Below are positions 11,880 to 55,840 of a stretch of DNA of 64,000 nt, in pieces (the first letter of the stretch is position 1; the number at the start of each line of letters is the position of its first letter). The notes below the pieces were generated by a model that saw only the letters and a list, made by a program, of their open reading frames with translations, made no database searches and was not told the DNA's origin. The stretch comes from Gloeobacter kilaueensis JS1 (GTDB lineage Bacteria; Cyanobacteriota; Cyanobacteriia; Gloeobacterales; Gloeobacteraceae), in assembly GCF_000484535.1 (NCBI RefSeq), contig NC_022600.1:4022234-4086233 (forward strand). The letters are read 5' to 3'. The translations under genes and the position numbers were made by a program.

Positions 11880-11964
11880 GGAGAGGTGGTAGAGCGGTTG
11901 ATTGCGCCGGTCTTGAAAACCGGAGAAGGGAAACCTTCCGTGGGTTCGAATCCCACCCTCTCCG
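11880..11964 (+). tRNA. tRNA-Ser (anticodon TGA)
   Basis: 85 bases. The acceptor stem GGAGAGG pairs with CCTCTCC; the anticodon arm is CCGGT CTTGAAA ACCGG; the long variable arm has GAAGG/CCTTC; the T arm is GTGGG TTCGAAT CCCAC. The discriminator is G and CCA is not encoded. It is the only complete copy among three related segments and is the integration target of the adjoining islands. Confidence 0.95.
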
Positions 11965-12074
11965 CTTACATTTCAGCCTCAAACCTTTACGGGATGGGAC
12001 TTTTTAGTGTTCGCGCTCTTCCCAGGCGACAGGGACAGACGTGTACAGAGTGGTACAGAGAGCTATAGAATTTA
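11904..12074 (+). repeat. Direct repeat 1: 3' half of tRNA-Ser plus downstream sequence (att-type site)
   Basis: Starts inside the tRNA at the anticodon stem and runs through the terminator-like segment ending TTTTTAGT (to 12008), then GTTCGCGCTCTTCCCAGGCG and following bases. It is repeated at 17070 and, as far as TTTTTAGT, at 18975. Placement at a tRNA 3' end identifies an att site. Confidence 0.9.
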
Positions 12075-12146
12075 GTGACGCTGGTAGTGACGCATCATTT
12101 TGACGCCCAGCCGTCGCTAAATTTCCGCCCCGTGGGGGCGCTCGAC

Positions 12147-17069: not shown

Positions 17070-17241
17070 GCGCCGGTCTTAAAAACCGGAGAAGGGAAAC
17101 CTTCCGTGGGTTCGAATCCCACCCTCTCCGCTTACATTTCAGCCCCAAACCCTTTTGGAATGGGGCTTTTTAGTGTTCGCGCTCTTCCCAGGCGACAGGG
17201 ACAGACGTGTACAGAGTGGTATGGAAAGGGATAGAATTTAG
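17070..17241 (+). repeat. Direct repeat 2: tRNA-Ser 3' fragment and flank (att-type site)
   Basis: Carries the anticodon arm to the 3' end of tRNA-Ser (through G17130) with the anticodon loop CTTAAAA instead of CTTGAAA, then the same following sequence as repeat 1 with scattered changes. The tRNA 5' half is missing, so it is not a functional tRNA. It separates two islands. TTAGTGACGCTAGTAGTGACG just before it (from 17018) also occurs just after repeat 1 (from 12071). Confidence 0.9.
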
Positions 17242-17252
17242 CCACGCTCTGA

Positions 17253-18914: not shown

Positions 18915-18974
18915 TGAAAATTAACCACTCTCGTAACGACAAATTTCTGTAAATTCCTCCAGTTGTGCATCAGA

Positions 18975-19077
18975 GCCGGTCTTGCAAACCGGAGAAGGGA
19001 AACTTTCCGTGGGTTCGAATCCCACCCTCTCCGCTTACATTTCAGCCTCAAACCTTTACGGGATGGGACTTTTTAGT
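18975..19077 (+). repeat. Direct repeat 3: tRNA-Ser 3' fragment and flank (att-type site)
   Basis: Repeats 11906-12008 almost exactly, including the flank CCTCAAACCTTTACGGGATG, which differs in repeat 2. The anticodon loop is CTTGCAA and the variable arm has one change. No tRNA 5' half precedes it. It probably preserves the original chromosomal 3' flank of the tRNA gene and marks the outer edge of the tandem islands. Confidence 0.9.
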
Positions 19078-19121
19078 CATTTCCCTTCTGTCAGTTTATG
19101 CAGAATCTGGCCGGGCAGGCA

Positions 19122-19583
19122 CTAGCTCAGATTCGAGCGCTCCGGCGCGTGACCGTCGCGCTCCAGCTCGGCGAGGGCCGCCCGACCAGCGGCGGTGAGC
19201 CGCACATTATCGACATCGACCGCCCCGACGATCGGCACGTTGTCGCGCGGATCGGGGGCCGCCTCGACGCGGGGCCGCTCCCGCTCGGGGATCGGCGCGG
19301 GGGGCAGTTTGTCAGGCTCCTCTGCTTCTCCTACCTGCTTTGCCTCGTTATAGCCGCCCCTTTCGAGCCTGCGGTCGCCGTAGGAGCCGGGCTCGAAATC
19401 TCCCACGAGCATTCCTTTTTGATAGATGTAATCGATGTGGCCGATAATCTCAGCGGGAGTGGCATCGAGGTGGGTAAAGTCCCGCTCGGATAGAGCAGGT
19501 ACCGGCTGCACCTCCTCCTCTTCGAGCGCCTGTACGTGGGACAAAATAGCGTACAGCAAATCCCGACGAATCTTGACTGGCAT
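19122..19583 (-). CDS. Hypothetical protein
   Basis: 153 residues from the ATG at 19583, preceded by AGGAG; the longer start at 19625 has none. MPVKIRRDLLYAILSHVQAL followed by IIGHIDYIYQKGMLVGDFEP and VRLTAAGRAALAELERDG resembles DUF2513-type proteins, which place a winged-helix-like domain around a 'L..i...e' start and an 'I.gHl..L.e.Gll' core. Function unknown. It is the first chromosomal gene after the islands. Confidence 0.6.
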   Translation of the reverse strand: MPVKIRRDLLYAILSHVQALEEEEVQPVPALSERDFTHLDATPAEIIGHIDYIYQKGMLVGDFEPGSYGDRRLERGGYNEAKQVGEAEEPDKLPPAPIPERERPRVEAAPDPRDNVPIVGAVDVDNVRLTAAGRAALAELERDGHAPERSNLS

Positions 19584-31987: not shown

Positions 31988-32554
31988 TCACTCAGGATTG
32001 AGAATACGTTCAGTGCTGAGGTGCAGGTCCGGAAAAGTCGGTGAGACAATCTCCTGCCCAGCTTGAAAAATCGCCTCCTCGTAGAATCCTTCTTCCCAGA
32101 CGAGCACACTCACCTTCTGCTCGATCGGATCGACAATCCAGTACTCCGGCACGCCAAATCCCGCGTATTCAGAACGTTTGAAGCGGTAGTCGCGCTTTAC
32201 CGATTCAGGGCTGACCACTTCGATCACCAAAGGCGGCGGTGTCTGGAGCACAGCAGCAGTATTTTCGATGTCGTCCACCTGCTGTGCAGTCAGGATGCAC
32301 AGATCGGGAATCCGTACCCGCCGCAGCGCAGTCTGGACTCCCGTCTCGCTCTGCCGTACCTGCCAGTTTCTTGCCAGACGATCGACTTCTTCCTGCAGAC
32401 AAAACAGAAGAAACCGCACAATCCGGCCATGCTTGCCGGTGGCCGGGGTCATCCGCTCCAGAACTCCATCGACCAGTTCGTGGCGGTAATCGGTACCATC
32501 GTCGTAGTGCAGGTACTCTTCGTAGGTGAGCAGACGACCAGCGGGAGCTTCCAT
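31988..32554 (-). CDS. Uma2-family endonuclease (DUF820)
   Basis: 188 residues from the ATG at 32554, matching the usual family size; the start at 32671 adds a tail that does not resemble the family. LTYEEYLHYDDGTDYRHELV, VRIPDLCILTAQQ, PLVIEVVSPESVKRDYRFKR and YAGFGVPEYWIVDPIEQKV are Uma2 landmarks, with the PD-(D/E)xK-like acidic residues. Cyanobacterial genomes carry many copies. No DNA target is known. Confidence 0.9.
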   Translation of the reverse strand: MEAPAGRLLTYEEYLHYDDGTDYRHELVDGVLERMTPATGKHGRIVRFLLFCLQEEVDRLARNWQVRQSETGVQTALRRVRIPDLCILTAQQVDDIENTAAVLQTPPPLVIEVVSPESVKRDYRFKRSEYAGFGVPEYWIVDPIEQKVSVLVWEEGFYEEAIFQAGQEIVSPTFPDLHLSTERILNPE

Positions 32555-32730
32555 CAAAGACTGCCGAGGACAGGTTGCCACCAGGATAGCTTCGTAAATC
32601 AGTATCTGATGGACGAAGTGTACCTGGGCAACGGTTGAACGTACATGGCTAAGGAGACGAAGGTCATTCAACGTTAGACCAAAGCAGCCCTACGTCCCTT
32701 GTGGCAGATGAAAAACGAGACGAGCCTGCA

Positions 32731-32854
32731 ACTGACTTCACCCATCCCGCCTGCAGCCCAGTTACAGTGAACCCCCCCTCTTCTTCCCTGCCCGGCGGGG
32801 GCAGGGGAGGAGAGCGGGGGGCAGGGGGGGGTGTGGAGGGGTGGGGGACGGTTT
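32731..32854 (+). repeat. Dispersed G-rich repeat, copy R1 (intact)
   Basis: Begins ACTTCACCCATCCCGCCTGC, passes GTTACAGTGAACCCCCCC then CTCTTCTTCCC, and ends with runs of G separated by one or two bases. An inverted, diverged copy is at 51413-51533, and a copy split by an IS110 element is at 54443 and 55771. The G-rich half could form a quadruplex. It holds an unoccupied exact match to the IS110 guide (CCCCCCCT at 32772-32779 followed by CTTC). Confidence 0.85.
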
Positions 32855-32954: not shown

Positions 32955-33227
32955 ATAGAGCAGGTTGTCGTCGATGCTGAGGGTCGCATTTTGCTGCCTG
33001 CCAACCTGCGACAGCAGATGGGGCTGCATTCAGAGTCCGTTTTGACTGTGCGTCTGGAAGGCGATCAATTGATCTTACAAAGAGCGGACATATTGTCTCC
33101 AGACAAAGAACCGGCTGTGGAAGAGATTGGGGGCTTCCTGATGGTGGACGCCGAGATTTCAGGAGACCCACGCACTGTGGTCGAGCGAATGCGCCAGGAA
33201 CGCCCCGATCGTCTAGCCAACTTGTAA
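32955..33227 (+). CDS. AbrB/MazE-like antitoxin with a non-standard start
   Basis: About 90 residues if it begins at ATA 32955. The frame reads QVVVDAEGRILLPANLRQQM and continues GLHSESVLTVRLEGDQLILQ, the swapped-hairpin SpoVT-AbrB pattern (VDAeGRI.lPa.lR). The frame opens right after a TAA at 32949. The only strong ribosome-binding site, AGGAG (32944-32948), is six bases from ATA; the first accepted start is a TTG at 32991, which would cut the fold in half. So either ATA is used, or the ATG mutated. No toxin gene is adjacent. Confidence 0.6.
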   Translation: MEQVVVDAEGRILLPANLRQQMGLHSESVLTVRLEGDQLILQRADILSPDKEPAVEEIGGFLMVDAEISGDPRTVVERMRQERPDRLANL

Positions 33228-33279
33228 TACATTCCGCTGCCTAAGGTCAGTGTCTTTAGTCTGAACTATCAGGTTTGAA

Positions 33280-51412: not shown

Positions 51413-51533
51413 AAAACCGTCCCCCACCTCCCCATACCCCCCTGCCCCCCTCTCCCCTCCTTCCCCCGCCGGGGAAGGAGAGAAGAAGGGGGTTCACTGT
51501 AACTGGGCTGCAGAGGGGACTGGTGAAGTCGGT
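51413..51533 (-). repeat. Dispersed G-rich repeat, copy R2 (inverted, diverged)
   Basis: Reverse complement of R1, with five instead of seven Cs at the core (reversed it reads GTGAACCCCCTTCTTCTC), and a gap of a few bases. It does not match the IS110 guide exactly. It fills the space between the FMN reductase and the gamma-glutamyltransferase gene. Confidence 0.8.
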
Positions 51534-54409: not shown

Positions 54410-54442
54410 TACCAACGCGCATCAATATCACAACTTGGTGGG

Positions 54443-54488
54443 ACCTCACCCATCCCGCCTGCAGCCCAGTTACAGTGAACCCCCCCTC
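54443..54488 (+). repeat. Dispersed G-rich repeat, copy R3, left part
   Basis: ACCTCACCCATCCCGCCTGC through GTTACAGTGAACCCCCCCTC. It matches the first part of R1 and stops where the IS110 element begins. Confidence 0.85.
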
Positions 54489-54509
54489 GTATATTGCTAT
54501 TGGTTCCAA

Positions 54510-54643
54510 GGTAGCGGTGAGGACTGTGCCCCCCCTTGCGGCTTTGACCGCGTGGAAGAGATTGTCCCCCGCTATCAAGGACCGGCAAAGCTGAACCGTA
54601 TCGAGTGGCACTGACCACGTATCACGAGGCTAGACTTTTGCCG
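54510..54643 (+). ncRNA. Candidate IS110 bridge RNA
   Basis: Two internal-loop units can be drawn. Unit 1: stem GGTAGCG (54510-54516) with CGCTATC (54570-54576) and GGAC (54521-54524) with GTCC (54564-54567); loop CCCCCCCT (54529-54536), hairpin GCGG-CTTTGA-CCGC (54538-54551) and GAAGAG (54555-54560). Unit 2: stem CGGCAAAG (54583-54590) with CTTTTGCCG (54635-54643); loop ACCGTATC (54595-54602), hairpin GTGG-CACTGA-CCAC (54605-54618) and ACGAG (54624-54628). CCCCCCCT equals the left target; GAAGAG complements the right target CTCTTC; ACCGTATC equals the right end of the element running into the core; ACGAG complements the left end CTCGT. Confidence 0.85.
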
Positions 54644-54691
54644 TCCTGCGGAACTTGCCTACCTCCTCTGAAGCTTCAACTGGAGACACTC

Positions 54692-55720
54692 ATGCAGCGA
54701 GACGGTTCACAAAACGACTATCAGCTATTTGTCGGTATTGATGTGGCGGCACTCACTGTCACTGCCGCCTGGCTGCTCACCCACGCAAAGCCTACCGCTG
54801 CCATCACACTGCCCCAAACCCCCGAAGGACACTGCCAATTGGCCGAACGCTTACTCGCCGTCTGTCCCACCGCCGCTGAGGTGTTAGTGGTCATCGAAGC
54901 CACAGGCTCCTACTGGATGCGACTGGCCACATTTCTGGCGCTCAAAGGTTTTGCCGTCAGTGTGGTCAACCCCGCTCAGTCTCATTACTTTGCCAGGGCA
55001 CTGCTCAAGCGTTCCAAAAGCGATGCGCTTGATGCCCAGACGCTTGCCCAACTCGCTGCCGCCCTGCAACCTGGTCTTTGGCAGCCGCCGCCTGAGATTT
55101 ATTACCAACTCCAACAGCGCCTGCAGCATCGCGATGCCTTGCTGCAGCAACGCCAACAACTGCACAACCAGTTGCACGCTCTGCGGCAATTTCCGTTGGT
55201 GGTGGCGGCGGTACAAGCGAGTCTGGAGCAGTTGAGCCACACCTTCGATGAGCAGATTGCGCAGATGGAAGCTCAGCTAGAAGCGCTGCTCGCCCAAGAC
55301 TCGCTTTGGCATCAAGCTGCAACCAAGCTGCGCACTATCAAAGGCATTGGGTCTGTCACCGCTGGGTGGGTGTTGGTGAGTACCCTCAACTTCGGCTGCT
55401 GTGCAACGGTGGAAGCGGCGGTGGCCTACGCGGGTCTCGCTCCCCGCTCCCACCGTAGCGGCACCAGCCTTCATAGACCAGAGCGCATCGGCCATGCAGG
55501 CAATGCCCGCTTACGCACGGCGCTGTATATGGCGAGCTTGAGTGCGATCCGCTGCAATCAGCAGATTAAAAGCTTTTACCAGCGGCTACGAGCAGCCGGT
55601 AAACCGGCAAAGGTAGCGCTTTGCGCTGCGGCTCGCAAACTCTTACACATTGCCTGGGCGGTTGTGAAAACAGACACGCCTTTCGATGCAGAGCACGGCA
55701 GGTTGGTTTGCTTGCAGTAG
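54692..55720 (+). CDS. IS110-family transposase (recombinase)
   Basis: 342 residues from the ATG at 54692, with GGAG six bases upstream. The RuvC-like DEDD domain has FVGIDVAALTV, VVIEATGSYWM and KSDALDAQTLAQLA. The C-terminal Tnp_20-type domain has IKGIGSVTAGWVLV, VAYAGLAPRSHRSGTS and GHAGNARLRTALYMASLSAI with the conserved Ser. Length and order are normal for the family and no lesion is seen, so it may be active. Confidence 0.93.
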   Translation: MQRDGSQNDYQLFVGIDVAALTVTAAWLLTHAKPTAAITLPQTPEGHCQLAERLLAVCPTAAEVLVVIEATGSYWMRLATFLALKGFAVSVVNPAQSHYFARALLKRSKSDALDAQTLAQLAAALQPGLWQPPPEIYYQLQQRLQHRDALLQQRQQLHNQLHALRQFPLVVAAVQASLEQLSHTFDEQIAQMEAQLEALLAQDSLWHQAATKLRTIKGIGSVTAGWVLVSTLNFGCCATVEAAVAYAGLAPRSHRSGTSLHRPERIGHAGNARLRTALYMASLSAIRCNQQIKSFYQRLRAAGKPAKVALCAAARKLLHIAWAVVKTDTPFDAEHGRLVCLQ

Positions 55721-55770
55721 GGCGGAGGAAGAGAAGAAAGGAGGAGGCTGCTTGACTCTCAATACCGTAT

Positions 55771-55840
55771 CTCTTCTCCTCTGCCCGGCGGGGCAGGGGA
55801 GGAGAGGGGGGGCAGGGGGGGTGTGGAGGGGTGGGGGAAA
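55771..55840 (+). repeat. Dispersed G-rich repeat, copy R3, right part
   Basis: Continues R3 beyond the IS110 element: CTCTTCTCCTCTGCCCGGCG followed by G runs ending GTGGGGG. Together with the left part it rebuilds one R1-like unit. Confidence 0.85.

Follow-up and report, generated by a model that had tools for sequence, protein, structure and literature searches.

An empty copy of a REP-like repeat as the probable bridge-RNA-guided insertion site of a resident IS110 element in Gloeobacter kilaueensis JS1

The window, as the whole stretch of DNA analyzed here is called, spans 64,000 nt (bases 4022234-4086233) of the 4,724,791-bp Gloeobacter kilaueensis JS1 genome. It contains three copies of a common intergenic repeat, termed R1, R2, and R3, the last of which is interrupted at position 54487 by an IS110 element. 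The 12 bases on which this report centers, CCCCCCCTCTTC, lie within R1 at 32772-32783 on the plus strand and are the sole exact match in the window. A Uma2-family putative endonuclease gene (31988-32671, minus strand) adjoins R1, and a short frame to its right (32960-33229, plus strand) resembles, by eye, an AbrB/VapB-type antitoxin. The window also holds a second direct-repeat family with units of ~180 nt and 69-92% identity (11904-12082, 17070-17248, and 18973-19151). The repeat copies and the element are:

32740..32849, plus strand: repeat R1, an empty copy of a ~110-bp intergenic repeat family (DNA search, copies tabulated)
32772..32783, plus strand: open guide-matched target CCCCCCCTCTTC, with left half 32772-32777, core CT 32778-32779, and right half 32780-32783
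32778..32814, plus strand: imperfect palindrome of R1, with arms 32778-32793 and 32799-32814, starting at the core CT
51421..51530, minus strand: repeat R2, empty and without a guide-matched target (sequence comparison)
54442..54487, plus strand: left part of R3, through the core CT (54486-54487)
54488..55772, plus strand: IS110 element, 1285 bp with one core CT (55771-55772) included; the genome has 17 near-identical copies of it
54692..55720, plus strand: IS110 transposase, 342 aa, with DEDD_Tnp_IS110 and Transposase_20 domains
55773..55840, plus strand: right part of R3, beginning CTTCTCC

The R1 palindrome, folded as DNA, forms a strong hairpin (-23 kcal/mol, z = -2.5) that begins at the core. 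A first-pass annotation of this sequence had described R1 as holding the complete guide-matched target that is split in R3. The sequence agrees on both counts: CCCCCCCTCTTC, the part of the target that could pair with the left and right target guides of a putative bridge RNA, is intact in R1, and in R3 CCCCCCCT (54480-54487) and CTTC (55773-55776) stand on either side of the element. R2 reads CAGTGAACCCCCTTCTTCTCTCC, matching its earlier description as having five Cs and a downstream half unlike that of R1.

The transposase matches both PF01548 (DEDD RuvC-like, E = 5e-28) and PF02371 (Transposase_20, E = 2e-19), and scores 210 bits against NCBIfam NF033542, for which the cut-off is 140. The protein is present in 17 genome copies at 100% identity, and the 1284-bp element stretch shows only one substitution across all 17 copies combined. 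All copies lie in the R1-type repeat, share a single insertion base and orientation, and are flanked by CCCAGTTACAGTGAACCCCCCCTC and CTTCTCCTCT. When these flanks are rejoined at the CT core, the empty repeat CCCCCC-CT-CTTC is restored, with no target duplication beyond the core itself. The earlier suggestion that the element has adopted a genomic repeat as its home is borne out by all 17 copies, which are found exclusively in the R1-type repeat.

This repeat is intergenic, palindromic, present in many copies, and REP-like. Genome-wide, CCCCCCCTCTTC has 18 matches, as compared to 1 (0 + 1) for a reversed-pattern control. Seventeen of the 18 fall inside R1-type repeats, and the remaining match, at 3461594, lies in an apparently coding stretch. 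This count, which the first-pass annotation had named as a check, indicates that R1 is a member of a family rather than a chance 12-mer. A search with the left part of the repeat identified 51 copies in the genome, of which 34 are guide-matched when counted after rejoining the filled sites. Half of these (17) are filled and half (17) are open, and none of the 17 unmatched copies is filled (Fisher p = 2.8e-4). R1 had been described as the only open target, which is correct within the window but not genome-wide, where it is one of the 17 open guide-matched repeats. The repeats diverge among themselves far more than the element copies do, from which we infer that the element's burst was recent relative to the repeats. 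Two Y1_Tnp genes are present in the genome, one of them (4139076) near a repeat. This gene (L024 539-844, genome 4139076-4139381) lies ~650 bp away from the repeat copy that diverges most, and its IS200/IS605-type Y1 transposase frame is followed by one with a TnpB-like zinc ribbon. As a RAYT that might move the repeat it was rejected, since it appears to belong to an IS200/IS605-type element.

A bridge RNA would most likely be produced from the left non-coding end of the element, where the following features are found, all on the plus strand:

54510..54640, plus strand: putative bridge RNA region with target- and donor-binding internal loops (folds, and a comparative fold with both-sided changes)
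54529..54536, plus strand: left target guide (LTG), CCCCCCCT
54553..54560, plus strand: right target guide (RTG), TGGAAGAG, in which GAAGAG (54555-54560) pairs with CTCTTC; the homologous position covaries in relatives
54595..54602, plus strand: left donor guide (LDG), ACCGTATC, with its match in ACCGTATCT at the right end of the element
54620..54628, plus strand: right donor guide (RDG), TATCACGAG, conserved in relatives; its pairing with the left end CTCGTATA leaves one base bulged

The guides occur in the order LTG, RTG, LDG, RDG, which is the order described for IS621. The LTG is a low-complexity run of Cs, and the LDG lacks the last base of the core. When the left end was dinucleotide-shuffled 100,000 times, the matches of the two target guides were reproduced 22 times and those of the two donor guides 5 times, with no shuffle yielding all four; these figures are indicative, since the guide patterns were defined after the sequence was seen. 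The bridge-RNA region alone folds little better than shuffled sequences (z = -0.73), and a longer stretch gives z = -2.1. An Rfam scan of the region matched no model, returning only sub-threshold microRNA models.

The closest proteins found are from Ktedonobacter and other Chloroflexota (48-58% identity). Among 386 cyanobacterial genomes, a match at E <= 1e-60 was obtained in G. kilaueensis JS1 only. In three other Gloeobacter genomes, neither the element nor the repeat was found at the search thresholds used, and the IS110 relatives present there were all distant (at most 40-45% identity). The left ends of the Ktedonobacter elements have donor guides in common with the G. kilaueensis element, but not target guides. 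The Ktedonobacter RTG, AACGTAAG, predicts the right flank CTTACGT, which is seen at five of six insertions, the sixth reading CTTACAT. The K. robiniae copies have a left flank, GGTGACAGCT, that agrees with the corresponding LTG, GGTGACAGC; mismatches occur in L108. In the Ktedonobacter racemifer copies L109 and L110, the RTG matches while the LTG, GGTACGAGC, is a poor match to the left flank GGTGACAGCT; the guide in these two copies may have changed after insertion. A third relative, L106, shows a seven-base fit between its RTG, TTAAAAAG, and the right flank CTTTTTAT. An RTG predicted from the right flank of the Oscillochloris relative L113 (GAGCGAG) was searched for and not found. Comparative folding revealed changes on both sides of the target-loop stem that preserve its pairing. 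A pattern search for the Ktedonobacter target as a repeat gave few near matches, little above control.

Taken together, R1 is very probably an unoccupied copy of the REP-like repeat, found throughout the genome, into which the resident IS110 element inserts under the guidance of a bridge RNA. The target loop (LTG CCCCCCCT, RTG TGGAAGAG) would pair with CCCCCC-CT-CTTC of the repeat, and the donor loop (LDG ACCGTATC, RDG TATCACGAG) with ACCGTAT-CT-CGTATA, the joined ends of a presumed excised circle. The transposase would then exchange strands at the CT core, which would fix both the base and the orientation of insertion. Expression of the RNA and the circular intermediate are, like the strand exchange, predicted from sequence features.

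A different reading is that the transposase or a host factor recognizes the hairpin or GC-rich structure of the repeat, with the guide match being coincidental or secondary. That a strong imperfect palindrome has the target at its foot fits such recognition, as does a difference among the matched repeats that lies two bases beyond the 12-mer and suggests that something outside it may matter. R1 carries CTCTTCTT where every filled site carries CTCTTCTC, and none of the 7 repeats of the CTCTTCTT sub-type is filled, while the CTCTTCTC sub-type is filled at 17 of its 27 sites (uncorrected p = 0.007). This effect was the best of 388 alignment-column states and is lost upon multiple-test correction (p = 0.14), so it may be due to chance. 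Extended RTG pairing was rejected as its source, as RTG base 8, compared by hand, mismatches both sub-types. We regard it as unlikely that target choice depends on sequence or structure just outside the 12 guide-paired bases and that R1-like CTCTTCTT repeats are protected despite their perfect match. The guide match of R1 is indeed perfect, as the first-pass annotation had stated in calling it a perfect target; with none of the seven sites of its sub-type filled, the usability of R1 itself is presumed rather than observed. Structure recognition also sits poorly with repeats that have similar palindromes and a single mismatch in the 12-mer, which are filled at 0 of 5 sites (p = 0.056), and with guides that match in canonical order and RTGs that covary with the targets in relatives. 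It is very improbable as the main explanation.

Least probable of all, and barely credible on this evidence, is that repeat and element were copied jointly, by duplication or through mobility of the repeat itself, rather than through 17 separate targeted insertions. The near-identity of the elements, with one SNP in 17 copies, would be expected from such copying. However, a single repeat variant would then be expected to travel along, and joint copying is disfavored because both the flanking DNA and the repeat variants differ between filled sites, with the same variants also found empty. Bridge-RNA-guided insertion into the guide-matched repeats is the preferred reading.

This genome offers a natural test of RNA-guided target choice, in that half of the matched repeats and none of the unmatched ones are filled. 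It would also extend the bridge-RNA mechanism to a cyanobacterium of an early-branching lineage. The new guide and target pair, with its extended right-target pairing, could be taken into laboratory assays. A literature search on Gloeobacter IS110 found no relevant paper, and the words "transposase" and "insertion sequence" are absent from the G. kilaueensis genome paper (PMC3806779).

In IS621, the core belongs to each guide pairing and the RDG pairs discontiguously (PMC11208160). The G. kilaueensis element resembles IS621 and other bridge-RNA IS110 elements in its transposase domains and in a putative RNA at its left end that bears a target loop and a donor loop, as well as in having a CT core within the guides, discontiguous RDG pairing, and REP-type insertion sites (PMC11208160). 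It differs from IS621 in its guide and target, with 6 matched RTG bases and a possible wobble as compared to 4 in IS621, in its early-branching cyanobacterial host, and in a repeat that is longer than a classical REP (PMC11208160). REP-targeting insertion sequences such as ISPpu9, ISPpu10, and ISPa11 likewise insert specifically into a palindromic repeat that is intergenic and present in many copies (PMC1525189); unlike for those elements, filled and empty as well as matched and unmatched repeats can be counted here in one genome. In IS1111/IS110 seekRNA elements, a non-coding RNA beside the transposase gene is reported to set target choice (PMC11187229), as the putative RNA would in this element. 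The assignment of the element, as a new member, to the already-known type of bridge-RNA IS110 elements with REP-like repeats as their home (PMC1525189, PMC11208160) is well supported.
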